DNA from: a virus
Reading direction: 5' to 3' (one strand)
Length of the DNA stretch: 64,000 bases
IMG/VR virus record: IMGVR_UViG_3300024520_000047
Span: 181,875-245,874 of that record
In this document: positions 1,455-63,777 of the stretch, in pieces
Layout of the letters: each line of letters begins with the position of its first letter
Numbering within the stretch: the first letter of the stretch is position 1
Translations under genes and position numbers: made by a program
The notes under the pieces: generated by a model
Databases searched by the model: none
What the model saw: the letters and a program-made list of their open reading frames with translations, nothing else
What the model was told of the DNA's origin: nothing

Positions 1455-1463
1455 GATAAATAT
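1455..1463 (-). promoter_or_regulatory. Late-promoter-like ATATTTATC motif
   Basis: On the minus strand this reads ATATTTATC and ends 4 nt before the ATG at 1450. It belongs to the TATTTAT family found upstream of many genes here. It faces a second copy for the divergent gene. Confidence 0.4.
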
Positions 1464-1478
1464 TTACTATCTATTTAA

Positions 1479-1486
1479 TATTTATA
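1479..1486 (+). promoter_or_regulatory. Late-promoter-like TATTTATA motif
   Basis: TATTTATA with 14 nt to the ATG at 1501. It is the plus-strand half of a divergent pair in a 50-nt intergenic gap. Confidence 0.45.
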
Positions 1487-1500
1487 GTAAAAACAAATAG

Positions 1501-2175
1501 ATGAAAGAATTAACACATGATGGTACTTGTAATAGGGTTCATCCCGATATTTCTCACGAAAAATGGGAAGAAAAAGAACAAAAAAAAGAAGAAACTAATG
1601 AAGAACAAGAATTAGATGAACTTGTTGATTATGATGGTTCACTATTAAGTTCTAAAATTCCTCTAGGGATTAATAAGACGAATAAAATAAGTAGAAGTAC
1701 TTCAGATGATGTTGTTAAAACCGCACACCAAAAAGGTAATGGTTTGGGGTATTACTATAAGCGTTACTGGGGGGAATCATATCTGGGTGGTGGATTAAGT
1801 GATGTTGAGGATATAGACACCATGTCAGCAGATGAAACAATTGACCATTTTGAAGATGAGTACGGATTAAGTCCATTAAGGGCACACGAAAAAGCGTCAG
1901 AATATGGTAAAATTGTAAATGGTAGTGAAGAAGATTTGCATGATGAGAAACAACGGATTGTAGAATTAGGTAATAATAAAATGAAAGATATGTTAGAAAT
2001 ATTATTAAGTAAGGACGCTAAAAATACAGAACGTGGGTTGGTAGACACGGATAAGCCTATAGAATTACACGATGAGAATAACGATAATCCCATACTAACT
2101 AAAATGGGTACTAAATTTAAACAAGCTTGTGATGCTCACGGAATTAATCCACAAGACATATTAAAAAATATATAA
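1501..2175 (+). CDS. Hypothetical acidic protein, 224 aa
   Basis: I do not recognise this protein. It is hydrophilic and acidic, with a Glu/Lys-rich stretch at residues 20-40 and predicted helical segments towards the C terminus. There is no signal peptide or membrane segment. It heads a run of five short plus-strand genes. The next gene begins at the base right after its stop codon, which suggests translational coupling. A TATTTATA motif upstream points to late expression, so a virion or assembly role is possible but unproven. Confidence 0.65.
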   Translation: MKELTHDGTCNRVHPDISHEKWEEKEQKKEETNEEQELDELVDYDGSLLSSKIPLGINKTNKISRSTSDDVVKTAHQKGNGLGYYYKRYWGESYLGGGLSDVEDIDTMSADETIDHFEDEYGLSPLRAHEKASEYGKIVNGSEEDLHDEKQRIVELGNNKMKDMLEILLSKDAKNTERGLVDTDKPIELHDENNDNPILTKMGTKFKQACDAHGINPQDILKNI

Positions 2176-2628
2176 ATGCCAGATAAAAATTTATATGATA
2201 GAACATTTGAGGTTCCTGATAAATGCATTGAACATATAAAAAATGCATTTACAAATTTTAATGGTCCAAAAACAACAGAAGGGTATGAACGTGCAAAAAA
2301 TATTTTAAAAAATCCAAATATTAGTTTACCCCTATTAAAAAAAATAAATAACTTTTTTAGAAATGAAGAAGAAGGGACTGCACCATATAATTTAACTGGT
2401 GGTGATTACGGTAAAAAAATATTTCAAAAAATGGAGGACCAAGTACGTAGAGGTGAGTCTTCTTCACGTAAAAATAAAATGAGAGGTGGTATGATGAATA
2501 CCCACTATAAAGAACATGAAAAGGACCAAAATGCTAACCCTACGGGTGTAAATGTCCCAAAAGTAGATAGCGTCCCCGCATTAATCGAACAAATAAAGAA
2601 AATTAAAAAACTTATAAACTATTTATAA
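2176..2628 (+). CDS. Hypothetical basic protein, 150 aa
   Basis: Unrecognised. The protein is Lys- and Asn-rich. Its middle segment (about residues 75-115) contains GGDYGKKI and a basic RGGMM stretch, and its C terminus is a helical IEQIKKIKKL segment. It starts directly after the TAA of the upstream gene without any gap and has no own promoter motif, so it is almost certainly translated from the same transcript. The lack of hydrophobic segments argues for a soluble or virion-internal protein. Confidence 0.6.
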   Translation: MPDKNLYDRTFEVPDKCIEHIKNAFTNFNGPKTTEGYERAKNILKNPNISLPLLKKINNFFRNEEEGTAPYNLTGGDYGKKIFQKMEDQVRRGESSSRKNKMRGGMMNTHYKEHEKDQNANPTGVNVPKVDSVPALIEQIKKIKKLINYL

Positions 2629-2638
2629 AAAAAAAGTT

Positions 2639-2962
2639 ATGGCACAAGAACAACAAACAAATCCAGGTGAAAAAATGACAGAAGTTGCAAAAGCAGAAAG
2701 AGATAAGCTATTTCCAAAAAACGAGTATAGCCCAAAATCAGAATTTTATAGTCCCCAACACCCCAACGCTTTAGCGGATGGTGACGATAAAGGAAGAGGT
2801 ACTAGCGTATATTTAGGGGTACACGACACTAAAACCGGTACAAAACTAGATATTCTTACGAGAGATGATTTAGTAAAAACTAACGCTTACAACTCTAAAA
2901 ATAACTATTCTGTTCCTGACGATGAGGCTACAACAGGTACTGTTGGATTAACACCTTCTTAA
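2639..2962 (+). CDS. Hypothetical protein, 107 aa
   Basis: Unrecognised hydrophilic protein, low in hydrophobic residues, with a run of Pro, Lys and Asn in the first 40 residues (NPGEKM, SPKSEFYSPQHPN). It lies 10 nt downstream of the previous stop in the same operon. The A-rich leader (AAAAAAAAGTT before ATG) fits the initiation context seen across the window. It may be an unstructured accessory protein; no function is assigned. Confidence 0.55.
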   Translation: MAQEQQTNPGEKMTEVAKAERDKLFPKNEYSPKSEFYSPQHPNALADGDDKGRGTSVYLGVHDTKTGTKLDILTRDDLVKTNAYNSKNNYSVPDDEATTGTVGLTPS

Positions 2963-2977
2963 TAAAGTTTTAAGAAA

Positions 2978-3340
2978 ATGAAACTTTACAACACCCTACA
3001 TTCACTTATATTAGAAGTAGCTTCTAGGGAAGACACCAAACAAGCTATTGAAAATAAATTAAGGACACTTATTTATTATGAAGGTGATACCGTTAATAAC
3101 CCAGGGTGGAGAACAATCGAACCAGTTTGTGCTGGGACAACAAAAAGAAATAATCCAGTTCTTAGAGCATGGCAAACAGAGGGGGCTACAGATACCGAAG
3201 TTCCTGGTTGGAAATTTTTTAGATTGGATAGGATTAGAAATTGGCAACCGACACTGGATGAGTTTACTGAAGCCCGTCCTGGTTACAACCCAAACGGCGA
3301 TAAAAGTATGAATCAAGTGTGGTTCAACGCAAAATTTTAA
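2978..3340 (+). CDS. WYL-domain-like protein, 120 aa
   Basis: The N terminus (MKLYNTLHSLILEVAS) is a short helix. It is followed by a region resembling phage stand-alone WYL-type domains: a hydrophobic TLIYYEGD strand, RTIEPVCAGTT, VLRAWQ, GWKFFRLDRI and a conserved-looking RPGYNPNGDKSM tail. WYL domains are Sm-like beta barrels that bind ligands or nucleic acids, usually fused to a helix-turn-helix, which is absent here. From memory, similar single-domain proteins recur in marine T4-like phages. The actual ligand and role are unknown. Confidence 0.55.
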   Translation: MKLYNTLHSLILEVASREDTKQAIENKLRTLIYYEGDTVNNPGWRTIEPVCAGTTKRNNPVLRAWQTEGATDTEVPGWKFFRLDRIRNWQPTLDEFTEARPGYNPNGDKSMNQVWFNAKF

Positions 3341-3349
3341 TAAAAAGAA

Positions 3350-4077: not shown

Positions 4078-5301
4078 ATGTCAAAATACAAAATTTTAGT
4101 TCTTCCCAGTGACAGAACAGGTGTATCCAAATTTAGGTCTGTAGACCCACACGTATGTTTACAAAAATTATATCCAGACGAATTTTGGGTCGATATAGAT
4201 TATGAACCTAAACTTAATGACGAAAATTATTTAAAAAAATATGATTTAATACATTACCATAGGTCATTACACGCCGATTATAAATTATCACAAAAAACTA
4301 TACCACTATTAAATAAATTAGGGATACCACATATTATGGATGTGGATGATTACTGGTTACCCAATATTGAACATCCCGCGTATATGTTAGTAAAAGGTAA
4401 TGGTATGGACCAACTTATAATGGATAACCTCAAATTAGCACAATATGTTACTACTACAACCCCTCTTTTTGCTAAGGAAATAAAAAGATTATGCTCTAAT
4501 GTACATGTATTGCCCAACGCTATTGACCCAAAAGAAAAACAATTTACAGCTAACCCTACAAAAAGTGACCGAATTAGGATTGGGTGGTTGGGGGGTTCTT
4601 CACATTTAGCAGACCTTCGTATATTAGAAGGTGTCGTAGATAAATTACTTCATTTTAAAGATAAAATACAGTTTGTTTTATGTGGTTTTGACACTAGGGG
4701 GACTATTACCGAATTTAACCAACAAACCAAACAACAAAAACAAAGACCCATTAAACCCAAAGAGTCGGTATGGTTTGAATATGAAAAAATATTTACAGGA
4801 AATTATAAATTGGTTGGTGATGAACAGAAAAAACAATTAATGCAATTTAAATTTGGTGAAGAGTATAAAAATTCTGACACACCTTACCGTAGAGTGTGGA
4901 CTAAACCCATCACCACATATGCCGAAAACTATAATAAATTTGATATAAGTTTAGCACCATTAAAACACCATAAATTTAATGAGGTCAAATCTCAATTAAA
5001 GGTCATTGAATCTGGATTCCATAAAAAAGCACTTATCGCACAGAATTTTGGCCCATATCAAATAGACTGTATAAACGCTTATGAACGAGGAGGCACATTT
5101 AATAAATCAGGGAACGCTATACTAATTGATGAAACTAAAAATCATAAACATTGGTTCCAACAACTTAAAAGACTTATTGAAAATCCAACATTAATTAAGG
5201 ATTTAGGCGAAAATTTATATGAGACAGTCCAAAAATATCATATAGAAAATGTAACTAAAGAAAGAGCTCAAATTTATAGAGACATAATAAATAAACACTA
5301 A
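4078..5301 (+). CDS. GT-B type glycosyltransferase, 407 aa
   Basis: Likely transfers a sugar from a nucleotide donor. The N-terminal half begins with a KILVLPSDRTGVSKFR loop, typical of a GT-B Rossmann fold, and contains DLIHYHRSL and IMDVDDYW. The C-terminal half (from about residue 165) has IGWLGGSSH, FVLCGF and a late segment DISLAPLKHHKFNEVKSQLKVIE, resembling the donor-binding end of GT4-like enzymes (E/K-rich, with a final Glu). Length fits GT4. It is the first gene behind the operon promoter. Acceptor unknown. Confidence 0.75.
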   Translation: MSKYKILVLPSDRTGVSKFRSVDPHVCLQKLYPDEFWVDIDYEPKLNDENYLKKYDLIHYHRSLHADYKLSQKTIPLLNKLGIPHIMDVDDYWLPNIEHPAYMLVKGNGMDQLIMDNLKLAQYVTTTTPLFAKEIKRLCSNVHVLPNAIDPKEKQFTANPTKSDRIRIGWLGGSSHLADLRILEGVVDKLLHFKDKIQFVLCGFDTRGTITEFNQQTKQQKQRPIKPKESVWFEYEKIFTGNYKLVGDEQKKQLMQFKFGEEYKNSDTPYRRVWTKPITTYAENYNKFDISLAPLKHHKFNEVKSQLKVIESGFHKKALIAQNFGPYQIDCINAYERGGTFNKSGNAILIDETKNHKHWFQQLKRLIENPTLIKDLGENLYETVQKYHIENVTKERAQIYRDIINKH

Positions 5302-21622: not shown

Positions 21623-21630
21623 TATTTATG
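21623..21630 (+). promoter_or_regulatory. Late-promoter-like TATTTATG motif
   Basis: TATTTATG with 19 nt to the ATG at 21650. First such motif of the plus-strand structural run, directly downstream of the sigma-like gene. Confidence 0.4.
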
Positions 21631-25795: not shown

Positions 25796-25803
25796 TATTT
25801 ATA
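25796..25803 (+). promoter_or_regulatory. Late-promoter-like TATTTATA motif
   Basis: TATTTATA with 16 nt to the ATG at 25820. It overlaps the end of the intergenic gap after the baseplate-like gene. Confidence 0.45.
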
Positions 25804-31533: not shown

Positions 31534-31541
31534 AATAAATA
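31534..31541 (-). promoter_or_regulatory. Late-promoter-like TATTTATT motif
   Basis: TATTTATT on the minus strand, 40 nt upstream of the ATG at 31493. One of the longer gaps in the set. Confidence 0.35.
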
Positions 31542-32320: not shown

Positions 32321-32328
32321 TATAAATA
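32321..32328 (-). promoter_or_regulatory. Late-promoter-like TATTTATA motif
   Basis: TATTTATA on the minus strand, 13 nt upstream of the protease start at 32307. Confidence 0.45.
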
Positions 32329-33862: not shown

Positions 33863-33870
33863 AATAAATA
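33863..33870 (-). promoter_or_regulatory. Late-promoter-like TATTTATT motif
   Basis: TATTTATT on the minus strand, 14 nt upstream of the start at 33848. It overlaps the end of the portal gene reading frame region. Confidence 0.4.
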
Positions 33871-36008: not shown

Positions 36009-37727
36009 TTATTTTAATCCTGTATATAACCATAAATAGTCATTGGGGTCATTTGATTTTGGTGGCAATACATGAGATGTAGCTCTTCCTGGTGTAAAAA
36101 CAGGTTTTCCGTTGTTTTTGGGTAACTTTCTTTCATCCATTGTCCAACTATCAATCATAGCTTTAGCTTGTGCAATATTGTTTTTTAATTGTGTAAAAGA
36201 ATTTTGTGCAACATATAAGGCCATAGACATAGACATAATCAAATCATCATGTTGTCCTCTCATGTGGTCAGGTCTGCCATTAATATATACAAATGTTTTT
36301 AATTCATTAAATAACCTTCTAGAATAAATCTTAAATCCAGTTCTTAATTGTTCCTCTAATGCTTGGACAATTTGAGCTCGTTTACTGTTAAAATTTATGC
36401 CTGGTACTTTGGTATCTGGGTTAAATTTCCACATTTCTGTGGCCTTAATTCCATCGTAATATAAGTCTTTATATCCAAGTTCTATCATTTTACGTGAAGT
36501 GGCTACACCCATTCCTCCAGTAATATCTATCACCACAAAACAACTATATTTGGTGGCCCATTTATGTGCCAAATCAGCGGCAATATCTGGTGGTAATTTT
36601 CCTAAATATTCTACTACTTGTTCTCTCTCATCAAAATCTATTATCTCAAAGCCAGTTGAATCCTCACTATCTCCTCGTGACACATCTATTCCCATTATAT
36701 ACTTATGCCCCACAATGGGTTCTTTCCACACCCACAAACCATTCCCCACCCATTTTTCTATAGGTTCAGTTAATTTTTCTTTTATTTTTTCCGTAGTTTC
36801 TATGGGTATAACGTTATCTCCGGACCCTAAAAACGCACATTCTAATTCCTGTGATATTTTTCTCCTATCAAACTTTAATTTCTTACACATTTCTTCAAAC
36901 CAAAAAGAAAAGGGTTTATATCCGGTTTCTATTAAAGACTCAAAATCCTCTTCTTTTTGATTAGATAATATTTTAATTTCAACATACTCTTCTCTATTTA
37001 AAAGAAAATGAACAATATCTTTAGTTTTTATCCACTGTAAATTTTTACTAAATCTAGGGTCATAATACCAACTCAAAGTACTAATTTGGAAATTATTAAT
37101 TTCTCTAATTGCTTGGTCATACACCTCATAATATATTTGGTCAAATCCGTTTGGTGTAGAGATGACAATAACCTTACCTCCTGTCGCAAGTGAGGCCATA
37201 CAAGCCGCCCATAAATTGGAACCAGCTTCGATATATGCAGCTTCATCAAAAATTAATATGGTTGGTGTATATCCACGTAACGCATCTACCGAGGTGGCAA
37301 CTGCTTTAACCTCTGAACCATTATTTAACTTATAATGTTTTTGTGAATTTTTATCTTTATCAAATCCAGAATTTACCCAATCGGGCCATTGGCGAAGAAA
37401 AGTTTTTATTTTATTTGCCATTTCCGTAGCAGTATCTAATTTATTAGCTAAAATAAGTACTTTTTCTGGACTATCTTCGGATGCAAATTGAAGTTTTTTG
37501 GATATCCAAGCTGAAGTAGCGGTAGAGACACCGGCTTGTCTATATTTGAGAACTATATTATCATCATAATTTTCAAAATCATGAATCATATTTTGTTGTT
37601 CAGGAAATAATTCAAATGGAACGTGTTTATTTTGGGTATTGTCGTATGTTTCTAAATAAGTTTTTAAGGCATAGTAGGTATCCTTATGGCATTTCACATA
37701 TTCTTGTATGAGTTCTTGTCTAGTCAT
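36009..37727 (-). CDS. gp17: Terminase large subunit, T4 gp17-like
   Basis: Packages DNA into the prohead. The ATPase part has KYRQAGVSTATS (adenosine-loop region, residues 61-72) and TILIFDEAAYIE (Walker B, D161-E162). The nuclease part has IMGIDVSRGDSED (D348), FVVIDITGG and RGQHDDLIMSMSM. In the Walker A the usual Lys is not in its place (RQAGVST). Length 572 aa is close to gp17 (610). Position and orientation with portal and protease confirm the T4 order. Confidence 0.92.
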   Translation of the reverse strand: MTRQELIQEYVKCHKDTYYALKTYLETYDNTQNKHVPFELFPEQQNMIHDFENYDDNIVLKYRQAGVSTATSAWISKKLQFASEDSPEKVLILANKLDTATEMANKIKTFLRQWPDWVNSGFDKDKNSQKHYKLNNGSEVKAVATSVDALRGYTPTILIFDEAAYIEAGSNLWAACMASLATGGKVIVISTPNGFDQIYYEVYDQAIREINNFQISTLSWYYDPRFSKNLQWIKTKDIVHFLLNREEYVEIKILSNQKEEDFESLIETGYKPFSFWFEEMCKKLKFDRRKISQELECAFLGSGDNVIPIETTEKIKEKLTEPIEKWVGNGLWVWKEPIVGHKYIMGIDVSRGDSEDSTGFEIIDFDEREQVVEYLGKLPPDIAADLAHKWATKYSCFVVIDITGGMGVATSRKMIELGYKDLYYDGIKATEMWKFNPDTKVPGINFNSKRAQIVQALEEQLRTGFKIYSRRLFNELKTFVYINGRPDHMRGQHDDLIMSMSMALYVAQNSFTQLKNNIAQAKAMIDSWTMDERKLPKNNGKPVFTPGRATSHVLPPKSNDPNDYLWLYTGLK

Positions 37728-37735: not shown

Positions 37736-37743
37736 AATAAATA
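37736..37743 (-). promoter_or_regulatory. Late-promoter-like TATTTATT motif
   Basis: TATTTATT on the minus strand, 8 nt upstream of the terminase start at 37727. Confidence 0.45.
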
Positions 37744-42739: not shown

Positions 42740-42747
42740 TATAAATA
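42740..42747 (-). promoter_or_regulatory. Late-promoter-like TATTTATA motif
   Basis: TATTTATA on the minus strand, 18 nt upstream of the start at 42721. Confidence 0.45.
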
Positions 42748-43541: not shown

Positions 43542-43549
43542 AATAAATA
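43542..43549 (-). promoter_or_regulatory. Late-promoter-like TATTTATT motif
   Basis: TATTTATT on the minus strand, 3 nt before the ATG at 43538, leaving almost no leader. Confidence 0.4.
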
Positions 43550-45791: not shown

Positions 45792-45814
45792 TAAGTATAC
45801 CGTTTAATTATTTA

Positions 45815-45848
45815 TGACATACTGTCACCATATACTGACATATTGTCA
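45815..45848. promoter_or_regulatory. Two palindromic operators in the dnaK-clpC interval
   Basis: TGACATACTGTCA (45815-45827) and TGACATATTGTCA (45836-45848) are perfect inverted repeats TGACA-N3-TGTCA. Their starts are 21 bp apart, two helical turns. They do not resemble the CIRCE element. They lie between dnaK and the clpC-like gene and may coordinate both. Confidence 0.6.
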
Positions 45849-45877
45849 CTACTTGATTTTAAAAGGTATTAATGTAT

Positions 45878-45885
45878 TATTTATA
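45878..45885 (+). promoter_or_regulatory. Late-promoter-like TATTTATA motif
   Basis: TATTTATA with 12 nt to the ATG at 45898; this distance supports that start. Confidence 0.45.
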
Positions 45886-45897
45886 ATAAAAAATGTT

Positions 45898-47949
45898 ATG
45901 ATAGAACCGACAGGAAGTTTTGCAGAATTTGAAAAGGGTAAACCCCAAAATTTACCTAAAAAAGAATCACTTTCATCGAAAAGTGGAACACCAGTACTAG
46001 ATAATTTTTCAAGAGATTTGATAAAATATGCGGAAGAAGGAAAATTAGACCCCGTGGTTGGGAGAGAAAAAGAAATTAATAGAATAGCCCAAATTTTATC
46101 ACGAAGAAAAAAAAATAATCCAGTATTAATAGGTGAACCAGGGTGTGGAAAAACCGCACTAGTAGAAGGGTTGGCTATGAAAATAAATGAAGGTAAATGT
46201 CCTCGTAATTTATTAGATAAAAGAATTGTGGGATTAGACCTAACATCCATCGTAGCTGGTACCAAATATAGGGGTCAGTTTGAAGAAAGAATGAAAGCTA
46301 TAATTGATGAATTAGTAGAACATGAAGAAATTATAATTTTTATTGATGAGATTCATACCGTCGTTGGAACCGGAAATGCTTCTGGTTCATTGGACGCCGC
46401 CAACATATTTAAACCCGCATTAGCACGGGGGGAGGTACAATGTATTGGAGCAACCACCATAAATGAATATAGAGAAAATATTGAAAAGGATGGTGCTCTA
46501 GAAAGAAGGTTTCAAAAAATAATAGTCGAACCCACAACTGTAGAAGAAACATTACAAATACTTAAAAATTTAAAAGAACGTTATGAAGAACACCATAAAG
46601 TTAATTATAGTGATGAGTCTTTAGAAGCTTGTGTGTTATTATCTGAAAGATATTTGACTCACAGAGAATTTCCAGATAAAGCTATAGATATTATGGATGA
46701 AGTGGGAGCTAAAGTACAAGTAGAATTAGAATACCCTAAAGAAATTGAGGATTTAAGACGAATACTTAGTGATTTAAAAGAAGAAAAGGTAGAGGTGGTA
46801 AAATCACAAAAATATGAAAAAGCCGCGGAATTAAGAGATAAGGAACGCACAGTTTTAGGTACTCTTGAAGAAAAAAAATTGGCGTGGGAAATGGAATTAG
46901 AAGATAGTCGTAAACCAGTAACGGAAGATGATATATATGATGTAGTTTCCCAAATAACAAAGATACCCATATCTAGATTAGACACTAATGAAACAAAAAC
47001 ATTACTGAGTTTAGAGAGCTCTCTTCAAAAAATTGTAATAGGTCAAAATGAAGCTGTCAAGAAAGTTGCAAGAGCCATCAGGCGTAATAGGGTTGGGATT
47101 AGAGATAATAAAAAACCAATTGGTTCTTTCATGTTTTTAGGTTCCACGGGTGTTGGTAAAACTCACTTAGCTAAAGCGATTGCACGTGAGGTGTTCGGTA
47201 ATGAAGATTCTTTAATACGGTTAGATATGTCAGAATATAAAGAAAAATTCAATTCAACAAGATTGATTGGTTCACCACCTGGATATGTTGGTTATAATGA
47301 AGGGGGTCAACTAACTGAAGCTGTTCGCAAAAAACCCTATTCGGTAATATTGTTAGATGAAATAGAAAAAGCTCATTCCGATATTTATGACCTATTATTA
47401 CAAATATTTGATGAAGGGCATATAACTGATAGTTTAGGGAGAGTCATTAATTTTAAAAATACCCTTATCATTATGACCTCTAATGTGGGAGCTAAACAAA
47501 TGGGTGAATTTTCAAACCCTTTAGGGTTCACAACGAAAGATTCTGAATCAAGAACAGAGGAAGCGGTATCACAAATATTGAAAAAAGCACTAAAAAATAC
47601 CTTTAAGCCAGAATTTCTAAATAGGGTAGAACATAATATAATATTTAAAAGTTTAGAAAAAAAATCTATTAGTAAAATAGTAAGGTTGGAACTGAATCAC
47701 TTACAAGAAAGATTAAAAGAAAAAAAATACCACATGACTTTTGATAAAAAGGTAACTGATTTTATTGTAAAAGAAGGGTATGACGATAAATTCGGTGCAA
47801 GACCAATAAAAAGAGCAATTCAAAATAAGTTAGAAGATTTTATTTCTGAAGAAATATTAAAAGGAAATGTCGTGGAACACAATACCTACACTATGAGAAT
47901 TAATAAAGATAATGAAATTACTATAAACGAAGAAAGTGATAATGAGTAG
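45898..47949 (+). CDS. ClpC-like AAA+ unfoldase lacking the N domain, 683 aa
   Basis: Two AAA+ domains: GEPGCGKT (residue 79) with Walker B, and GSTGVGKT (residue 415). Between them is a UVR-type motif ([16 protein letters not shown]). The second domain has the ClpP-docking loop tripeptide LGF at residues 542-544 (NPLGFTTK). The N-terminal adaptor-binding domain of ClpC is absent, and the protein starts with a Lys-rich linker. The start at 45898 is preferred over 45814 because it lies 12 nt after a TATTTATA motif. Unfolds substrates; may use host ClpP. Confidence 0.85.
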
Positions 47950-50357: not shown

Positions 50358-50365
50358 TATAAATA
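50358..50365 (-). promoter_or_regulatory. Late-promoter-like TATTTATA motif
   Basis: TATTTATA on the minus strand, 16 nt upstream of the fibre-like gene start at 50341. Confidence 0.45.
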
Positions 50366-50388: not shown

Positions 50389-51210
50389 TTAAAAGAGTAA
50401 TTGGGAATAATCTTTTTCTTGGTGTTTAAATGTATGTCTAGTATTCCCCAGCTTTTTAAGAATATTTTTTCCTAGTAAAATTGCATTACTAACATCTTCT
50501 ACTACAACATATTCATTTTTTGTGTGGTATCTATAATAACCAGTTGCAAAATTTAAACATGGAAAATCAAAATTTTTCTTTAACATCATTGTGTCGGTAT
50601 ATGGATGATATAACCATTTAATATACCCGTGATTTAATATAATATCCTTAACTGATTCAAAAAACAAACTTTTTTCTTCATACAGTTGGACACCCATTAA
50701 AGTTTTACTCATTGTATCATTTTCTGTAGAGTCAAATTGTATTGCGTAGCCCACATTTTTAAAAAACTCTGGGTCTGCTTGTTTTGAACCGTGACATCCA
50801 GTTTCTTCTGCAACGGGAAAGAAAACTTTACACGTGTCTACTTCTCGAAGAATTTCCATACATGTAAACACCCCAGCTTTATCGTCTCCACCAATACCTG
50901 TTGGTTCTCCAGTTTCTTTTTCATAAGCTTTTAAAGCAAATTTAGGTTCATTTTGTGCATTTAACCTATATTCCTCCTCTATAACCATATCAACTTTTGG
51001 GTGAACAGTATCTAAGTGAGCAACCAAGCAAGGATAAATCTCACTCTGGCCTTTGGTAATATAAAGACACCCCAAGTCGTCTTGATAAAAGGACACACCA
51101 TTTATTTGTTGTAACTCATTTATCAAAAATTCAATTAGGTCGTCTTCCTCCCAAGTATAGGTCGGAACGGCTAACAAATTTTTTAATCGTTGTAATTGTT
51201 TATTTTCCAT
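50389..51210 (-). CDS. M20 family (PepT-like) metallopeptidase, 273 aa
   Basis: Zinc-dependent exopeptidase fold. Metal-binding residues are visible: HLDTV (H65, D67), GIGGDDKAG (D109/D110), EETGCHGS (E135/E136) and the C-terminal HTKNEYV. At 273 aa it is shorter than PepT (about 408), so the dimerisation domain may be reduced. It has a host-type promoter with the ATG only 4 nt after the -7 element. A peptide scavenging or processing role is possible; the family is unusual for phages. Confidence 0.75.
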   Translation of the reverse strand: MENKQLQRLKNLLAVPTYTWEEDDLIEFLINELQQINGVSFYQDDLGCLYITKGQSEIYPCLVAHLDTVHPKVDMVIEEEYRLNAQNEPKFALKAYEKETGEPTGIGGDDKAGVFTCMEILREVDTCKVFFPVAEETGCHGSKQADPEFFKNVGYAIQFDSTENDTMSKTLMGVQLYEEKSLFFESVKDIILNHGYIKWLYHPYTDTMMLKKNFDFPCLNFATGYYRYHTKNEYVVVEDVSNAILLGKNILKKLGNTRHTFKHQEKDYSQLLF

Positions 51211-51442: not shown

Positions 51443-51516
51443 GCTCCCGTAGCTCAACTGGATAGAGCAACAGCCTTCTAAGCTGTAGGTTATAGGTTCG
51501 AGTCCTATTGGGAGTA
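51443..51516 (+). tRNA. tRNA-Arg (anticodon UCU)
   Basis: 74 nt cloverleaf. The acceptor GCTCCCG pairs with TGGGAGT with two G-U pairs. The anticodon stem ACAGC/GCTGT encloses CTTCTAA, so the anticodon is TCT, decoding AGA. The T arm ATAGG/CCTAT with loop TTCGAGT is intact. CCA is not encoded. AGA is a common Arg codon in this AT-rich sequence, so the gene may ease codon demand. Confidence 0.93.
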
Positions 51517-51599
51517 CGTAAAAAATTTTGTAATATTCTTTGTATTGTCAAGTATTTATATTACATTTATAATTAGTTCTTTGAAAATATTTAAAATAT

Positions 51600-52988: not shown

Positions 52989-55271
52989 TTATTTTTTTCT
53001 ATTTCTTCGTTTATTTTGACGTGCTCTACGTTTTTCTTTTTTGGTTGGTTTTGGGTCTCCTTTTCCCGTCAATCCATATTCAGATTTAACTTTAGAACTT
53101 CCACCCCCAATAAAATTAAAGTCATCATAACAGTGAGATAAGGCTTGATATACATTTTTACCACCTTTTTTAGGTAATAATTCAGCACTATAACTAATTA
53201 AATCCTTACACCCTTCTTTTGTTGGTGCTAATTTAACCTCATCTTCTAATGTCTTCGTAATGTTTTTCATATCTTCTTGGGTCCCTTTAAATTCGGGTAC
53301 TTTAACTTCTTGATTGGAGGAAGCTACGTCCTCTTTAGGTGTGGACATTGCTTTTAACATAAAAGAAGCGGTTTCTGGGCCAATAACTCCGTCAACCTTT
53401 AATCCGTTAGTCGATTGATAATTTTTAACAGCAGTGTGGGTTGAATCATCAAATACGCCGCTTTCATTCATTCTTAAAAATTTCTGTATTCTATTGATTG
53501 ATGTCCCTTTTTGTCCTTTTTTAATTAATCCGTTTCCCGCTGCGGCATCTTCTAATGATGGAGCAGTGGTTGCACTTGGTGTAGATTTTTCTTTCTTTTC
53601 TTTACTACTACTATTGTCATCCCCACTTCTTCTTCTGCTAATTTTATGTCTGTCATCATCAGAGTCATATTTTACAGTATACTTACCTTCACTAACTAAT
53701 TGACTTTCATTTAAAACTTTTCTTAAATCATGAATAGACTCTTCTAATACCTCAAAATCATTAACCCCCATTGCCATAGATATCGCGGCACCTTGTATAA
53801 CACTTGGTTTTCTTTTTGCTGTATTTGGGTTATCCTCCACTAAATCATCTATATATTCATCAGCTGTTCCTTCAGGTCCTTCTATCATATCTAAGGTTTC
53901 ACCTTTTTCATAAACCACACCATTAACCTCTATATCATCACTTAAAGTCATTAAATCACTACCTTCGTCAGCCTTATTAAATATTTTCATTACTTTAGCT
54001 TTATCTTCATCATCTTCTATAACAAATGTTTCACCATCTAAAGTCCTAAAGTATACTTTATCTTCAGAATTTTCAATATATTCAAACATTCCCATATAAT
54101 CTTTACTACCAGCACCAAAAACTATTGCAGTATTAGACGCCCCTGCTGTGTCTACAAAGACATCCACAGTCTGACCACCAAAAAGAGTTTTAAATGTTAT
54201 TCGATAGGCTGGTAATCCTTCTGGTCTTTCAAATAAATCCTTAGACAGGTCTTCCATCTCTTTTTCTAAATCTTCTATAGTATAAATTCTTTTTCCGTTA
54301 ATTATACATAAAGGTTTATCTTGTAATATAGTTAAAATGGGTTGGAAATCTGATTCATTTAATTCGTCACCCAATTCTTCTATTAAAGAACCATATTTTA
54401 AATCATAGATTCCTGTTAAGTGAGAACAATCATATAATGTAGCTACATTTCTAAAGGCATTGTATATACTTTCTTCATCTGTACCCGCACCTTCAGTAGC
54501 ACCAAACGAAATAAAATCCACTAATCCTTTACCGAAATATTTTTCACCACCTTCTGTAGCGTCTTGAATCATGTCAGCTAACCCCGCTAATTGTGCTTCG
54601 CTTTGAAAGGTAAATGGGATTTCTTCAGTTAATCCCTGCTTTTCAGCTTCGTCATATACCGCAGGATTAAAAGCAATTGCTAATATGTCTTCTTGACTTA
54701 GTGTACCACCATTTGCCCATTGTTCCATGGATGCTGCCGCGTCTCCCGGTCCCTTTCCAGACATATTACTAGCTGCCAGATATCCTCCGCCCCCCAATAC
54801 GGTTAAAGCTTTTAACCCTCCTAAAACACGTGCATTTAAAATAGATTTACTTTGGGCGGCAGTTAATGTTTTTGCTCCACCGGGTAATTTTCCTAAACTT
54901 AATCCACCAGAAGCTATTTTACCAACATTCTTGGTCCCTAAACCAGCTTTAGCTAACCCACCTGTTGGTACTTTGGTAATCCCCCGCATAAATTTAGGTA
55001 AAACACGTGCTCCACCTCGTGCAATCCATGGTCCTAATCTTGCTAATCCACCTACAATAGCCCCCCAAAACTCTAGTTGTAATTCCCCATCAATTGGTGG
55101 TGTATCGGTGATAATTTCTTTGTTTTCTTTTATAACTTTAGGTTTTATTCTACTGTCATTGGTATTTCCCAACAATACCTTTTTAGTTTTTGATGGAAAA
55201 TCCTTACTGTAACTCTCCAAATAGACCATTTTTTTTAATTCTTCCTCAAGTGTTTTTTTTGGTTTTTTCAT
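52989..55271 (-). CDS. Large virion protein with GTDE and peptidoglycan-binding modules, 760 aa
   Basis: Starts KKPKKTLEEELKKMVYLES. A Gly/Ala-rich hydrophobic region (about residues 68-170) is followed by an annexin-like segment (GTDEESIYNAFRNVATLYD, then SLIEELGDELNES) near residue 285. A PG_binding_1-like domain (INRIQKFLRMNESGVFD, LKVDGVIGPETASFML) is at about residues 590-660. A very basic tail ends the protein. Peptidoglycan binding suggests a role at the cell wall during DNA delivery. No lytic active site is seen. Confidence 0.6.
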   Translation of the reverse strand: MKKPKKTLEEELKKMVYLESYSKDFPSKTKKVLLGNTNDSRIKPKVIKENKEIITDTPPIDGELQLEFWGAIVGGLARLGPWIARGGARVLPKFMRGITKVPTGGLAKAGLGTKNVGKIASGGLSLGKLPGGAKTLTAAQSKSILNARVLGGLKALTVLGGGGYLAASNMSGKGPGDAAASMEQWANGGTLSQEDILAIAFNPAVYDEAEKQGLTEEIPFTFQSEAQLAGLADMIQDATEGGEKYFGKGLVDFISFGATEGAGTDEESIYNAFRNVATLYDCSHLTGIYDLKYGSLIEELGDELNESDFQPILTILQDKPLCIINGKRIYTIEDLEKEMEDLSKDLFERPEGLPAYRITFKTLFGGQTVDVFVDTAGASNTAIVFGAGSKDYMGMFEYIENSEDKVYFRTLDGETFVIEDDEDKAKVMKIFNKADEGSDLMTLSDDIEVNGVVYEKGETLDMIEGPEGTADEYIDDLVEDNPNTAKRKPSVIQGAAISMAMGVNDFEVLEESIHDLRKVLNESQLVSEGKYTVKYDSDDDRHKISRRRSGDDNSSSKEKKEKSTPSATTAPSLEDAAAGNGLIKKGQKGTSINRIQKFLRMNESGVFDDSTHTAVKNYQSTNGLKVDGVIGPETASFMLKAMSTPKEDVASSNQEVKVPEFKGTQEDMKNITKTLEDEVKLAPTKEGCKDLISYSAELLPKKGGKNVYQALSHCYDDFNFIGGGSSKVKSEYGLTGKGDPKPTKKEKRRARQNKRRNRKK

Positions 55272-55286: not shown

Positions 55287-55294
55287 TATAAATA
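55287..55294 (-). promoter_or_regulatory. Late-promoter-like TATTTATA motif
   Basis: TATTTATA on the minus strand, 15 nt upstream of the start at 55271. Confidence 0.45.
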
Positions 55295-58112: not shown

Positions 58113-59126
58113 ATGAAAAAGAAGGAATTAAAAGCTAACCACCCCGAGTTGGACATACATTTAGTTGACGTACTTAATCTTTTAGACCCATCTCAAACTA
58201 ACAAATACACCCAATTTTTAATTAAAGAATTTAAAAAAATTTATTCTAATTTCGAAAAATCAGAAAGGATACATCCAACCCTACACACCCCAACCATAGG
58301 TAAACTTTTTAAAAGTGGTTCAGTTTTAGAACACCACATTCTAGATTTTATTATTGAAATTTTAGGTAAAGAAAATATACACGCTTTAATAGATTTTAAT
58401 ACACATTTAGAAAATAAAAGAACTCAAATTACCGATATATCTAAACTGGAATCTTTTGGTGATGTACATGAACAACTTGTACTAGCAGAATTAAAATATA
58501 GTAATAATAAAATTAAAAAAGAAGTTAGTACGTTATACGACGATGGTGTGTGGTTAATAATAAAACCATTAACTTATGAATCCTCTAAAGTTTATGGTGC
58601 TTCTACCAAATGGTGTACGTCACAACGAGATAACCCACGACCATTTTATGAATACTCTAAAGAAGGCATATTTTTATATATTATTAATAGAGTAACAAAT
58701 AAAAAAATTGCAGTTAACTGGACTATTGATGGTTCACATATAGAGTTATCGTGGTGGGATGAGGTAGATAATCGGTTAGATTCAATGCAAACTCAACTAC
58801 CAAAACACATACTAGAAAAAATAAAAGAATTACTAAAAAGTGAAAACTTACCTAACCATAATTTTTTTAATAAAAAAGAAAAAAATAAATGTGAAGATGT
58901 TTTAAATAAATATAGTTCTGTAATACCGTCACCAGACGCGTGGGCTGTGTATAATCGTAATACTGAAACAAATGACTGGTATTCTATGAGTGATGGTAAT
59001 AATTGGACTATTAGTGATGAATCAGATGTACACTCTATGGGTGTAGATGAAGTTATTAATAAAACTTTAGAATATAATTACACCTATAAATCACTTAAAA
59101 AGTCATTAGAGGATTTAAACGATTAA
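58113..59126 (+). CDS. Hypothetical protein with KWCTS motif, 337 aa
   Basis: Residues 130-220 contain WLIIKPLTYESSKVYGASTKWCTSQRD, then FYEYSKEGIFLYIINRVTNKK, a pattern (TKWCT...YxxxGxLY) that recurs in phage proteins of unknown function. Flanking parts are helical. No nuclease or kinase motif is recognised. It overlaps the next minus-strand gene by 4 nt at the ends. Confidence 0.6.
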   Translation: MKKKELKANHPELDIHLVDVLNLLDPSQTNKYTQFLIKEFKKIYSNFEKSERIHPTLHTPTIGKLFKSGSVLEHHILDFIIEILGKENIHALIDFNTHLENKRTQITDISKLESFGDVHEQLVLAELKYSNNKIKKEVSTLYDDGVWLIIKPLTYESSKVYGASTKWCTSQRDNPRPFYEYSKEGIFLYIINRVTNKKIAVNWTIDGSHIELSWWDEVDNRLDSMQTQLPKHILEKIKELLKSENLPNHNFFNKKEKNKCEDVLNKYSSVIPSPDAWAVYNRNTETNDWYSMSDGNNWTISDESDVHSMGVDEVINKTLEYNYTYKSLKKSLEDLND

Positions 59127-61624
59127 CCCCAATAATGTTTATATGTATTCTCGTTTAAGGGTTCTGGGGTATCTATAGGGTTACTTTCAAACCCCACTTC
59201 TTTAGTAGAAAAAGGACTTTGTCCTTCATTTTTAAAAATTAATACCTCACCTTTATTACTAGGCCCAAACACAAAATAATCTACATTAGATGGATTATAA
59301 TACTTTAACCCGGTAGACTTAACAACGTGTTGATTTTTTCTTTTATAAAAACCATATAGGGGTTTGGCTTGGTACGTATGCATCTTACCACTCTCTTTAT
59401 TTTTAACCTCAATATCAACCCCGCTCACCGCATCTCGTCTTAAACCAGGATTTGCCTTCCAAATAACTTCATACCCATCTCCGTACCAGTCTTTTAAATA
59501 GTTCGACGCTCCAGTTTCATTTTTAATTCCGTACCCCCACGTACTATGATTTGCAGCTGTTAATTTTTTAAGAGTATCACTATTAGGGTGAAATAAATCC
59601 TTTTTATTGTAATATATAAAATCCACAAATTCATCTATATTAAAATTAAGGGGTAAATTATTCTGAGTTAAATACGATTCATAACTCTCAAGTAATATAT
59701 TTCTAACTACTGGATTAGTGTTAAAAAAATTCAGTATAGACCACCCATAATCACTTCCTTTGGCTACTTCAAAATTTAGAATTCCTTCCATGTGCTCATC
59801 GGTTGGCTTACCCCAACTATGATTAATATTTAGGTCCTTATCCTTGTATATTTCTTTTAAAGAATTATCAATAACTTCTTTAACTTTCCCCATCCAAGTT
59901 TTAGGTCCTCTATGTTTCCATTGGTAGTCACTTTTTATGGTATCTAATTTAAAATTATCTGGAATAAGGTGTTGGAGTGTTGGTCTTGTTTCTTTATTTA
60001 ATACAACATATAACCCCCCTCTTTTAGAGGTTCTAAAATTTCCTGCTTGTACTTCAGCCCATTTATTTGGGTCATCTTCATTTCTTAATGTAATGAATTG
60101 TGTGTCTGGGTCAGGTAGACCGGAAGTACCATTAAAAAATAAAATATGGTTAAATTTTCCACTCCCTAAAGCAGCCTTTTTGTACGTAATTTCTTTATAT
60201 TCTTCTTCTTTCAATATATTTTCTTTTGTTTCTGTAGGTGGTCCTAGTTTACGGTAAACATCCACATCTGGTAATAAGGGCATATTTTTAAATTGTTCGT
60301 TTTCTGGGTCGATAATCCACCTTACAAGGATTTTTTCACCCAATGCAGGCATACTCTCAAAACCCATAACAACACCCTTAGTTGCAACGGGAATGGGGTT
60401 CCATGGGTCTTCCATGTGAAGTAATTGAATGACATCTCCTATCTCTACTGGGGGGTTAGTACCCTTACTTTCATTAAGTCTTCTACGCTCTTGGGCATCT
60501 TCTAAAAACTTTCCACTTAAAATAAATGTATATAAACGACGAGCAATAGATTTAAAAACAGCATTAACATTTTCCATTGACATGTCACCATCTGAATTTT
60601 CTATTGTACTTAATGCACTCCGTGTCAATGCGTCTCTCACACTTTGGGCATTTTCCCATAAATAAAGTAAATCTTCATTTCCATATTCATGAAAAAATTT
60701 ATCGTAATCTGGGGGAAAGGCATTATTTTCTTCGGCCCATCTTAATATTTCCCCCGCGTATTCTCCCTTTAAATTAGATTCAGCGTCAGTTAAAAATGGA
60801 GATAAATCAGTCATGATTGGATTATAACGGCCCCAACTTCTAAGTCTCTCTACAAAATCGGCCACCAATATTCGGTCATTTCCTCTAAGGGCTTTTAATA
60901 AATCCACATTACCTAATAATCTTTCCATATCATCAGCCATTGCTTCTTTTAATATTCTACTTTCGTCTACTTCCCCTCGTCCCGATGATTTTAAATTATA
61001 CCCATCATCTGGATTATCAGTTAAATTAATTTTTTCTAAATGCCTTGGAGTTAATAATTCTTCTACCGGTATACCTGCACTTTTTAACTCCATCATAAAA
61101 TTATATAATGTGTTATAATCTTTTTTAAGATTTTCGTCGAGACATTTACCCACACAATCTGGGTCTATACCGTAGTCACCACAATAACATCGGAATTCCA
61201 TTACAATATCATAAAAAACGTCGAATAATAAAATTGCAAATACCCAGTCTAGGTGAACACCCTTTAATATTTGTAATTTATTATCTAATGTTGGGTAAAA
61301 TTCGAAAAACTTAGAACTACGTTGGTGGAATCCTTGTGCCTCCCTTGAAGTGGCAGGTGGGATATCACCTAATATTTCTGAAAAGTCAGGAGTTTCAAAA
61401 TCGGGATTAAGTAGCCCTAGCTTGGTCCCTTCTTTTACCGCGTCATCTAGAATGTATAGGGCATCATCAAAATTTGCTGAGGGGTCAGTAAAACTTTCCG
61501 CGTAAGTACTGGGGTGGTAAGTTTTATATAATTGTCTATATAAATTACCCTTATGTGGTTTCCAAAATTTCTTTAAAAAATATTTGAAGGGTTCTATGGG
61601 TGGTAGTGTCTCGTATTCTTCCAT
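59123..61624 (-). CDS. Large virion-like protein with nuclease-like C terminus, 833 aa
   Basis: Residues 1-500 are helical and unassigned, with an HLDWVFAILLFDVFYDI hydrophobic helix and a CYCGDYG...DCVGKC Cys cluster near residue 145. The C-terminal domain (about residues 700-800) has SGVDIEVKNKESGKMHTYQAKP, a D-x(n)-QxK arrangement like PD-(D/E)XK nucleases, and a following VDYFVFGPSNKGEVLIFKN. It starts 4 nt after a late motif. Perhaps an injected protein with DNA-processing activity; this is inference. Confidence 0.6.
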   Translation of the reverse strand: MEEYETLPPIEPFKYFLKKFWKPHKGNLYRQLYKTYHPSTYAESFTDPSANFDDALYILDDAVKEGTKLGLLNPDFETPDFSEILGDIPPATSREAQGFHQRSSKFFEFYPTLDNKLQILKGVHLDWVFAILLFDVFYDIVMEFRCYCGDYGIDPDCVGKCLDENLKKDYNTLYNFMMELKSAGIPVEELLTPRHLEKINLTDNPDDGYNLKSSGRGEVDESRILKEAMADDMERLLGNVDLLKALRGNDRILVADFVERLRSWGRYNPIMTDLSPFLTDAESNLKGEYAGEILRWAEENNAFPPDYDKFFHEYGNEDLLYLWENAQSVRDALTRSALSTIENSDGDMSMENVNAVFKSIARRLYTFILSGKFLEDAQERRRLNESKGTNPPVEIGDVIQLLHMEDPWNPIPVATKGVVMGFESMPALGEKILVRWIIDPENEQFKNMPLLPDVDVYRKLGPPTETKENILKEEEYKEITYKKAALGSGKFNHILFFNGTSGLPDPDTQFITLRNEDDPNKWAEVQAGNFRTSKRGGLYVVLNKETRPTLQHLIPDNFKLDTIKSDYQWKHRGPKTWMGKVKEVIDNSLKEIYKDKDLNINHSWGKPTDEHMEGILNFEVAKGSDYGWSILNFFNTNPVVRNILLESYESYLTQNNLPLNFNIDEFVDFIYYNKKDLFHPNSDTLKKLTAANHSTWGYGIKNETGASNYLKDWYGDGYEVIWKANPGLRRDAVSGVDIEVKNKESGKMHTYQAKPLYGFYKRKNQHVVKSTGLKYYNPSNVDYFVFGPSNKGEVLIFKNEGQSPFSTKEVGFESNPIDTPEPLNENTYKHYWG

Positions 61625-61628
61625 CTTC

Positions 61629-61636
61629 TATAAATA
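61629..61636 (-). promoter_or_regulatory. Late-promoter-like TATTTATA motif
   Basis: TATTTATA on the minus strand, 4 nt upstream of the start at 61624. Confidence 0.4.
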
Positions 61637-62216: not shown

Positions 62217-62534
62217 CTATTTTTTTTCCTTTTTAAGTAGTTCTACCCACTTTTCTGAAACTATTTTATAATAAAATTTGTCATTTGCAAAATATAAGGA
62301 TTCACCAAACCCTTTATTAATTAATTGTCCTATTAGTGGAGCTTTGTCGTCACCCCACCCAATACTGATGGTGGTGTACTTATTAGTTTTTTTATTTGGT
62401 AGGTCCGATTTAATAGGGTTCATTAAGCGATTAATTAGTTGTGGCTTAGTACCAGATACTTTTAATCCTTTTTCTTTACAAAGGGATTTTAATCCTTTTA
62501 CTGTCATTTTTCTATATTTTTTCTCTGTATTCAT
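62217..62534 (-). CDS. SAP-domain protein, 105 aa
   Basis: The N-terminal 40 residues contain a SAP motif, MTVKGLKSLCKEKGLKVSG then TKPQLINRL, two helices that bind DNA. The rest (TISIGWGDDKAPLIGQLINKG, FYYKIVSEKW) forms a small alpha/beta domain. The ATG is 4 nt after the -7 element TATCTTTG. It may bind phage or host DNA early in infection. Confidence 0.65.
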   Translation of the reverse strand: MNTEKKYRKMTVKGLKSLCKEKGLKVSGTKPQLINRLMNPIKSDLPNKKTNKYTTISIGWGDDKAPLIGQLINKGFGESLYFANDKFYYKIVSEKWVELLKKEKK

Positions 62535-62538
62535 AATA

Positions 62539-62569
62539 CAAAGATAAACAAAAAAAATTAAACTACAAA
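62539..62569 (-). promoter_or_regulatory. Bacteroidota-type promoter of the SAP gene
   Basis: On the minus strand TTTG (62569-62566), 19 nt, TATCTTTG (62546-62539), then TATT and the ATG. A leaderless transcript is likely. Confidence 0.7.
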
Positions 62570-62587
62570 ATTAAATGAAAAATATTT

Positions 62588-62893
62588 TTAAAAATCGTCT
62601 TCGTTAAATGGGTTCATTTGACTTTTAAGTTGGACCATTATCTTAGAATAGTCATTCATGGGACCCACGAAATCATTTCTTACCTTACCTAATTCGTGTT
62701 TCAACCTATCTTGTACCAGTATTCCCTCAACTAATGAAGAAAACACATCCATCGAATCTCTAAATTTCATATAATTTTCGAATAGGGTCTTCATCATGGC
62801 TTCCTCATCCTGTGCTCCTATATTTGGGTCGTCATACCCACCCACCTCATTAAGTAGTTTTTGATATTGTGAATTATTTAATTTAACTTTCAT
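62588..62893 (-). CDS. Hypothetical protein, 101 aa
   Basis: Starts MKVKLNNSQYQKLLNEVGG, a distant relative of the TESEL-type N termini nearby. The rest is helical (EAMMKTLFENYMKFRDSMDVF, KVRNDFVGPMNDYSKIMVQL). It has a late motif 3 nt upstream of the start. Not recognised. Confidence 0.6.
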   Translation of the reverse strand: MKVKLNNSQYQKLLNEVGGYDDPNIGAQDEEAMMKTLFENYMKFRDSMDVFSSLVEGILVQDRLKHELGKVRNDFVGPMNDYSKIMVQLKSQMNPFNEDDF

Positions 62894-62896
62894 AAT

Positions 62897-62904
62897 AATA
62901 AATA
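62897..62904 (-). promoter_or_regulatory. Late-promoter-like TATTTATT motif
   Basis: TATTTATT on the minus strand, 3 nt upstream of the start at 62893. Confidence 0.4.
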
Positions 62905-62918
62905 TATCTTAAAATTGT

Positions 62919-62950
62919 TTTGGTAATTACAATATTTTTATTTATCTTTG
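62919..62950 (+). promoter_or_regulatory. Bacteroidota-type promoter of the 62955 gene
   Basis: TTTG (62919-62922), 20 nt, TATCTTTG (62943-62950), then TATT and the ATG at 62955. Confidence 0.75.
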
Positions 62951-62954
62951 TATT

Positions 62955-63410
62955 ATGAAAAGATTACCAAAGAAAATACAAAAAATAATTAAAAGAGAAA
63001 GATTTACTCTGGATACCACCACACCCAATGACCGTTACACAAAGGGGGTTAAAGTCACCTATCGTATTAGTGGAATTACAACTGCTGACGCAAAATGGTT
63101 TAAGGAAAGTACACCAATGGATAAAAATTTGTGTCAGGATATTTGGGTGAATATAAAAGTAAGTGGGGTGGCTGAGACTGGTAACTATCAAGACTTAGAA
63201 AAGAAGCTACGGCCTATCGGTGATGTAGCAAAATGTAAAAGAAGTTCTAGATGGGGGTATAATTCTTTATGGGGTTACCAATACCACAAAAAAATTAGAG
63301 TACACCTTCGCCGTCACACTAAATCTGAAATTGAGAATTTTCTAAAACTAGTTGGGATTCAGGCCCAAGGATGGGTTAATTTAAAAATTAAAACTATCGG
63401 GTGGGAATAG
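62955..63410 (+). CDS. Hypothetical basic protein, 151 aa
   Basis: Basic N terminus (MKRLPKKIQKIIKRERF). The rest is beta-rich (GVKVTYRISGITTADAKWF, QDIWVNIKVSG, KIRVHLRRH) with no motif I recognise. The start codon is 4 nt after the promoter, so the mRNA may be leaderless. It could bind nucleic acid, given its charge. Confidence 0.55.
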   Translation: MKRLPKKIQKIIKRERFTLDTTTPNDRYTKGVKVTYRISGITTADAKWFKESTPMDKNLCQDIWVNIKVSGVAETGNYQDLEKKLRPIGDVAKCKRSSRWGYNSLWGYQYHKKIRVHLRRHTKSEIENFLKLVGIQAQGWVNLKIKTIGWE

Positions 63411-63411
63411 A

Positions 63412-63759
63412 TTAACGATTCTTTTTAATGTAAGACATTCTATCTTCCATTTCATTTACATCTTGAACAAACTTGTGAACCTGCTCTTCATCTATAAACT
63501 TACTAACTTCATTTAAGTGGTCAACCACCAAACCATGTCTATCATCTGATAAGGCGTGGTTTTCTGGTTGCATCTTTAATTGACCTTGTTGTGAACTTAG
63601 AGTACCCTGCATTCTCCACTCATTTAGTGAAGTTTTTTCTTCCTCAGTATGAAGATTTCTAATTCGTTTAGTTTCAGCAGAAGAGTTATTATAATGTCTG
63701 GGGTCTTCTTTCCTTCTATTATATTTGTGCCCTTCCCAACGTGGATGATTTAAGTTCAT
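63412..63759 (-). CDS. Hypothetical protein, 115 aa
   Basis: Hydrophilic and basic at the start (NLNHPRWEGHKYNRRKEDPR), helical at the end (LNEVSKFIDEEQVHKFVQDVNE). It has a late motif 10 nt upstream. Unrecognised. Confidence 0.6.
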   Translation of the reverse strand: MNLNHPRWEGHKYNRRKEDPRHYNNSSAETKRIRNLHTEEEKTSLNEWRMQGTLSSQQGQLKMQPENHALSDDRHGLVVDHLNEVSKFIDEEQVHKFVQDVNEMEDRMSYIKKNR

Positions 63760-63769
63760 AGTTTTTATA

Positions 63770-63777
63770 TATAAATA
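63770..63777 (-). promoter_or_regulatory. Late-promoter-like TATTTATA motif
   Basis: TATTTATA on the minus strand, 10 nt upstream of the start at 63759. Confidence 0.45.

Follow-up and report, generated by a model that had tools for sequence, protein, structure and literature searches.

Which promoters does a T4-type phage of the Bacteroidota use to switch on its late genes, and which sigma factor reads them? The question is raised by a heptamer, TATTTAT, that recurs ahead of genes on both strands of a 64,000-nucleotide (nt) stretch of viral DNA (the window), positions 181,875-245,874 of the 245,874-base IMG/VR virus record IMGVR_UViG_3300024520_000047 and hence the end of that contig. T4-type head genes lie within it, encoding the major capsid protein, the prohead protease and the large terminase (Table 1). 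The analysis favors, with a probability of roughly 0.8, the reading that TATTTAT(A/T) is the -10-like element of a class of late promoters recognized by the phage's own divergent gp55-type sigma factor on the host core RNA polymerase. This reading draws on computation: the box is enriched, keeps one orientation, falls into spacing classes, is conserved and is strict in its seven letters; it co-occurs with the sigma gene, and that sigma is homologous to gp55.

Genomes and approach

The focal genome (G000) has a guanine-plus-cytosine (GC) content of 33%. Among isolates, those closest to it by terminase are Flavobacterium phage immuto, at 27.5% identity and with Flavobacterium sp. LMO8 as its host, and Microcystis phage Mel-JY01; numerous IMG/VR contigs encode a terminase 61-90% identical to the focal one. 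Immuto, Mel-JY01, G001, G004-G009 and sister-clade contigs served as comparison genomes. Exact host-type promoters of the form TTG-N19-23-TANNTTTG stand upstream of 14 focal genes, against 0.37 in shuffled leaders; from these promoters and the kinship to immuto, we infer that the host is a member of the Bacteroidota. Genes were called by a simple heuristic, the longest open reading frame beginning with ATG, and the spacing of boxes to ATG was therefore tested separately without annotation. Sites were counted in sense orientation within 60 nt upstream of starts, and the null was formed by 300 dinucleotide-preserving shuffles of the same leaders.

Enrichment, orientation and placement of the box

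TATTTAT occurs 61 times in the window. Eighteen starts there are preceded by it, against 3.9 in shuffled leaders (maximum 10), a count that exceeds every shuffle and equals the estimate of an earlier, sequence-only reading of this DNA. Over the whole genome, there are 56 sites, upstream of 55 of the 248 genes, where shuffled leaders give 14.1 ± 3.8 (maximum 27), so that the shuffling check proposed by that reading came out in its favor. The eleven starts it had listed all bear a co-oriented TATTTAT(A/T/G) 11-26 nt upstream. Neither the reverse complement ATAAATA (31 vs. 21 shuffled) nor the T4 late consensus TATAAATA (9 vs. 6.8) is significantly enriched upstream of focal genes; the claim that the motif keeps one sense on both strands therefore holds, and the motif is not a matter of simple AT-richness. 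That the script recovers known late promoters in their correct orientation is clear from two positive controls: it returned TATAAATA in the T4 late region (12 vs. 0.7) and ATAAATA in cyanophage S-PM2 (10 vs. 1.3).

The sites mark the beginnings of transcription units. A gap of at least 20 nt or a strand switch lies upstream of 47 of 54 motif genes in the focal genome, compared to 83 of 193 others (p=4e-9), and the association has odds ratios of 4-24 in five genomes. Recognized carriers include the genes for the prohead protease, terminase, tail tube, tail sheath, baseplate wedge protein, head-tail adaptor, an endolysin-domain protein and a fiber with YadA repeats, while many others have no recognized function. 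The earlier proposal that the motif marks most virion genes was thus too strong: its association with unit starts stands, but the major capsid gene lacks the motif and some carriers are not virion genes. Since a DnaB-like helicase gene also carries a box, at -31, the class is better called "late," by inference, than strictly "virion."

Conservation in relatives

The same heptamer ranks first or among the first of the upstream 7-mers in G001 (81 vs. 13 shuffled), G004 (27 vs. 3.4), G005 (24 vs. 6.2), G006 (26 vs. 5.6) and a pair of contigs from the sister clade (15 vs. 1.6 and 18 vs. 3.7). Mel-JY01 (12 vs. 2.6) and immuto (30 vs. 6.6) are enriched for it as well, but in immuto it is outranked by several other repeated words. 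The strongly repeated words upstream of immuto genes include GTTGCCT, TTCGTAT and TTTAGGTATCA, which may represent a further class of promoters or interspersed repeats. Each of 77 further loci collected by their sigma gene, which are mutually related and hence not independent samples, has at least one site, for a total of 211 in 1407 distinct leaders, compared to 50 after shuffling. In these loci, one-base changes of the heptamer at 10-28 nt from the start bring the count down toward chance, the exceptions being TATTTGT (26 vs. 5.4), the only one clearly tolerated, and, weakly, TACTTAT (8 vs. 4.2). GTAGAGC, ATTGGGC and ATATTCG are over-represented in their leaders as well, to some extent probably because of sequence kinship.

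Conservation extends to individual genes. Comparing reciprocal best orthologues of G000 and G001, we find the box retained at 32 of 40 motif genes and present at 7 of the remaining 109 (odds ratio 58, p=2e-18); the G004 orthologues have it at 20 of 26 and 2 of 57, respectively. Among distinct terminase leaders, 30 of 31 retain the box while their other bases have diverged, and in 29 of these 30 an ATG follows the first T of the box at a distance of 11 or 12 nt. At the terminase genes of the more distant relatives (L060 onward) the box is missing, but that clade uses it elsewhere.

Spacing and the host promoter slot

Where, then, does the box lie relative to the transcription start? Scanning without annotation revealed an excess of ATG after TATTTAT at offsets 11-12 (6.0% and 4.1%) and again at 18-25 (peak 5.1% at 21), with a trough at about 14-16; control heptamers give ~1.7%. 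Host promoters provide the yardstick. In Flavobacterium johnsoniae, RNA starts 4-5 nt after the TAHHTTTG (-7) box, in which T-7 and G-5 are nearly invariant, and the promoters have AT-rich centers at -18 and -28 (PMC6847099). In 157 late promoters pooled from four genomes, with positions counted from the first T, GC content has minima at -15 (6%) and -16 (16%) and at -7/-6 (15-18%), compared to ~27% elsewhere. With the first T placed at -12, these minima fall at -27/-28 and -18/-19, matching the AT-rich positions of F. johnsoniae. Beyond the minima near -28 and -18, no -35-like element and no base further upstream is conserved. Among the host-type boxes of the focal genome, eight are likewise followed by an ATG at offset 12. 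Because both ATG spacing and AT-rich context match those of host promoters, the late box appears to occupy the slot of the host -7 box, -12 to -5, and many late mRNAs, those of the 11-12-nt class, are predicted to be leaderless.

Host-type promoters TTG-N19-23-TATCTTTG also occur in the window itself, at 27433, 50389-51210, 56961, 62217-62534 and 62955, and in loci L001-L005. Several place the ATG exactly 12 nt after the start of the box, which predicts leaderless early mRNAs.

This likeness invites the proposal that the boxes are read by the host sigma, or by an alternative host sigma, perhaps with a phage-modified polymerase. The housekeeping promoters of Bacteroidota (TTTG/TAHHTTTG, read by sigma-ABfr) do share with late boxes the slot, the AT-rich context and the leaderless ATG spacing, and TATTT fits TAHHT. 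However, late boxes read TATTTAT(A/T): A-7 and A/T-5 replace the nearly invariant T-7 and G-5, there is no TTG element at -33, and the focal genome keeps the separate class of exact host-type promoters counted above. We regard a host reader as improbable.

A gp55-like sigma factor

A search of the focal genome for sigma region 2 yielded two proteins. One, encoded within the window from a GTG start, comprises 232 amino acids with a region 2 and a helical C-terminal domain, and matches Sigma70_r2 (E 5.8e-5 / 8.6e-4). By HHalign, the profile of its family aligns with gp55 at 89% probability (E 2e-6), compared to 0.7-4% for the alignment with the second, RpoD-like protein. Relatives of this sigma match phrog_234 (gp55) at E 1e-4 to 4e-3, a profile that control genomes also match at E<=1. 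Single phmmer queries of the focal genome with T4 gp55, gp45, gp44 and gp62 found no match; the focal sigma likewise found none by tblastn in a phage collection, in which its immuto orthologue as query detected relatives. The gp55-like sigma is present in G000, G001, G004, G007, G008, G009, immuto (gene 153), Mel-JY01 and the 77 loci, and was not seen in G005 and G006, both partial records. It is the only sigma found to be common to the genomes that use TATTTAT. With homology to gp55 by profile in addition, the earlier suggestion of a divergent late promoter class served by this sigma is the best-supported reading, its late timing and start site being predictions.

The second protein, 264 amino acids with regions 2 and 4, might be thought the reader instead. 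It is a genuine sigma-70 homologue, and the gene just upstream of its own (177 amino acids, same strand) has a TATTTATAGAT box. Yet it was found only in G000 and G001 and was detected neither in immuto, of which 150 of 160 kilobases (kb) were read, nor in the other TATTTAT genomes, and the boxes lack the conserved -35-like element noted as missing above. Its distribution leads us to reject the RpoD-like protein as reader, leaving it a slim chance. The gene preceding it combines a host-type promoter with a TATTTATA box, the two arranged in tandem.

How might a gp55 relative have come to read a different box, as proposed? In T4, gp55 Y97 stacks on A-12, N13 and H95 contact A-9, T99 contacts A-8, and E70, D74 and E77 bind the clamp helices of the polymerase (PMC7892883). 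Y97 corresponds to Y92 in 100% of the focal family, and the positions of E70 and D74 are acidic in 94-97% of members, with Ser at E77. T99 is replaced by Gly, Ser or Gln, H95 by Tyr or Phe (the latter also in cyanophage gp55), and N13 is not kept. The sequence-only reading held that a T4-type interpretation would point away from the gene in every case. A same-sense comparison replaces that statement: two of the eight bases of TATTTATA depart from TATAAATA, with T in place of A at -10 and -9 and with A-12 and A-8 retained, so that the box represents a shifted specificity rather than an inverted T4 promoter. As TATTTATA has T in place of A-9, a changed -9 contact is plausible, a suggestive correspondence rather than proof.

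The remainder of the protein, residues ~139-232, forms a conserved helical domain of ~95 residues (predicted local distance difference test score 88 when modeled in isolation), in which K194 and R202 are invariant and the pattern NKN..REMT..STKEIR nearly so. Foldseek found no fold match for it in the PDB (best E 1.8), and despite the good model, it could be assigned neither as region-4-like nor as gp33-like.

Comparison with known late promoters

The T4 late promoter, its consensus placed roughly a helical turn ahead of the start and served by gp55, gp33 and gp45, resembles the focal class in having one strict AT-rich octamer-type -10 element, no -35 element, about 50 sites on both strands, and virion genes downstream. 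The region-2 sigmas are homologous and share the tyrosine that stacks on A-12. They differ in box sequence and the -9 contact as described; moreover, the focal sigma has its extra C-terminal domain in place of the clamp-binding tail of gp55, and no clamp gene was found. Cyanophage late promoters (ATAAATA in S-PM2), a further point of reference, keep the T4 sequence, and cyanophage gp55, which aligns with the N-terminal part of the focal family, is shorter at 164 amino acids.

A third variant occurs in Rhodothermus phage RM378, where TATTTAA (TTATTTAA) stands upstream of ~36 genes with a peak 13 nt before ATG (L234-L236), and reaches 16 vs. 1.1 shuffled in the last 50 kb. This motif differs from the focal box in its final base, A rather than T; no description of it as a promoter was found in the literature searched. 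RM378 encodes a member of the gp55-like family, Rm378p020 (E 1e-12), annotated as a hypothetical protein. Its annotated sigma factor, Rm378p144, does not match the family. Since a family member and a variant box thus occur together, sigma and box appear to have changed together, LR756508 (below) perhaps excepted, and their co-divergence is the best reading of the series.

A proposed mechanism

In the mechanism we propose, the gp55-type sigma would replace the host sigma on the Bacteroidota core RNA polymerase. Through its region 2 it would recognize TATTTAT on the non-template strand, with no need of a conserved -35 element, in the position, -12 to -5, at which the host sigma engages TAHHTTTG. 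Early genes would retain host-type TTG-N19-23-TAHHTTTG promoters, while late units would carry TATTTAT. With transcription starting ~12 nt after the first T, a box 11-12 nt before ATG would produce a leaderless mRNA, and one 18-26 nt before it a leader of ~6-14 nt.

Several observations weigh against this reading. The relationship to gp55 seen by HHalign is a distant one (18% identity over ~105 residues), and although the AlphaFold2 model contains a sigma-region-2 part and its top Foldseek matches are sigma factors, none falls below E 0.001. The sigma family has no recognizable sliding-clamp-binding tail, as judged by alignment only, and phmmer searches with T4 and C48C1 gp45, PF02916 and PF00712 found no gp45-like or DnaN-like gene, though a highly diverged clamp or that of the host may serve; activation of the T4 type is consequently not supported. 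LR756508, a 484-kb uncultured phage, encodes a gp55-like sigma 40% identical to that of immuto and shows no TATTTAT enrichment in two ~40-kb stretches; its box may differ from TATTTAT. In immuto, conservation at the level of orthologues falls short of significance (3 of 11 motif genes). Finally, the major capsid gene is without a box in the focal phage and four relatives, and is presumably transcribed by read-through from upstream.

Two explanations dispense with a promoter altogether. TATTTAT could be a signal for translation or RNA processing, as its proximity to start codons and the absence of Shine-Dalgarno sequences from Bacteroidota genes (PMC6847099) might suggest; the two spacing classes with a trough between them, the association with unit starts (odds ratios of 8-24 in four genomes), and the coincidence with the slot of the host -7 box make this very improbable. 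A compositional artefact, to which AT-rich leaders in a genome of such low GC content might give rise, is already refuted by the dinucleotide shuffles, the reverse complement, the one-substitution neighbors and the conservation at orthologues.

Boxes and other features of the window

About 16 of the window sites are credible late promoters (Table 1), because the site at 62939 overlaps a host-type promoter and that at 36031 sits inside the terminase gene. The former is probably an early promoter and not a late one, and the latter probably a chance occurrence. The box at 31534 may drive the major capsid gene by way of the gene that precedes it.

The window also encodes an Hsp70 (DnaK) protein, a divergent protease and a tRNA. 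Its glycosyltransferase match is located close to the beginning of a long cluster of co-oriented genes, and a few more genes of that cluster are weakly similar to a sugar-nucleotide epimerase gene of immuto.

Table 1. Predicted late promoter boxes and other features, in window coordinates unless stated otherwise
Feature	Sequence	Position	Strand	Remarks
Predicted late promoter box	TATTTATC	1455..1462	-	12 nt before ATG of gene starting 1450; predicted start ~1450, leaderless
Predicted late promoter box	TATTTATA	1479..1486	+	22 nt before gene 1501-2175; back-to-back with box at 1455
Predicted late promoter box	TATTTATA	2620..2627	+	19 nt before gene 2639-2962
Glycosyltransferase match		4078-5301		phrog_7162
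gp55-like sigma factor		20907-21605	+	
Predicted late promoter box	TATTTATG	21623..21630	+	27 nt before gene 21650-22018
Predicted late promoter box	TATTTATA	25796..25803	+	24 nt before gene 25820-27373
Major capsid protein		27974-29770		
Box	TATTTATT	31534..31541	-	48 nt before gene 29811-31493 (-)
Prohead protease		31597-32307	-	
Predicted late promoter box	TATTTATA	32321..32328	-	21 nt before prohead protease gene
Predicted late promoter box	TATTTATT	33863..33870	-	22 nt before gene 33117-33848
Large terminase		36009-37727	-	
Site	TATTTATG	36031..36038	-	51 nt before gene 35727-35987, within 3' end of terminase gene
Predicted late promoter box	TATTTATT	37736..37743	-	16 nt before large terminase gene
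Predicted late promoter box	TATTTATA	42740..42747	-	26 nt before gene 42329-42721
Predicted late promoter box	TATTTATT	43542..43549	-	11 nt before gene 42774-43538; predicted leaderless
Hsp70 (DnaK)		43862-45727		
Divergent ATP-dependent protease		45814-47949		phrog_4871
Predicted late promoter box	TATTTATA	50358..50365	-	24 nt before YadA-head-repeat fiber gene 47954-50341
tRNA-Arg (tct)		51443-51517	+	
Predicted late promoter box	TATTTATA	55287..55294	-	23 nt before endolysin-domain gene 52989-55271
Predicted late promoter box	TATTTATA	61629..61636	-	12 nt before gene 59123-61624; predicted start 61624, the A of ATG
Predicted late promoter box	TATTTATT	62897..62904	-	11 nt before gene 62588-62893; predicted leaderless
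Site	TATTTATC	62939..62946	+	overlaps host-type promoter (TATTTATCTTTG); full promoter TTGGTAATTACAATATTTTTATTTATCTTTG
Predicted late promoter box	TATTTATA	63770..63777	-	18 nt before gene 63412-63759
RpoD-like sigma factor		L095:1075-1869; genome 79,688-80,482	-	

Implications

In the literature searched, mostly papers outside subscription, neither TATTTAT nor TATTTATA was found described as a late promoter of a phage. A review of T4 describes the consensus sequences of other T4-type phages as close to TATAAATA (PMC2988020), and a survey of cyanophages searched with the T4 late promoter sequence (PMC3037559). Late transcription by gp55 has been worked out essentially in one phage. Here, a large lineage in another phylum has a different, equally strict box together with a diverged sigma. 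The T4 late switch seems to have been rewritten in that phylum, with TATTTAT, in the focal phage and in hundreds of its relatives on Bacteroidota, probably read by a phage sigma distantly related to gp55.

A broader proposal, which we advance tentatively and would not yet bet on, is that these phages represent a clamp-independent branch of gp55 in Bacteroidota and related phages: a two-domain sigma, its new C-terminal domain replacing gp33 and gp45, would read TATTTAT (TATTTAA in RM378) in the host slot and put the start codon of many late genes right at the 5' end of the transcript. The natural series TATAAATA, TATTTAT and TATTTAA bears on how a minimal sigma shifts its specificity and on whether late transcription can work without a clamp. 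The predicted leaderless late mRNAs are testable in a cultured phage, and the box provides a rule by which late promoters can be annotated in hundreds of phages from the environment.

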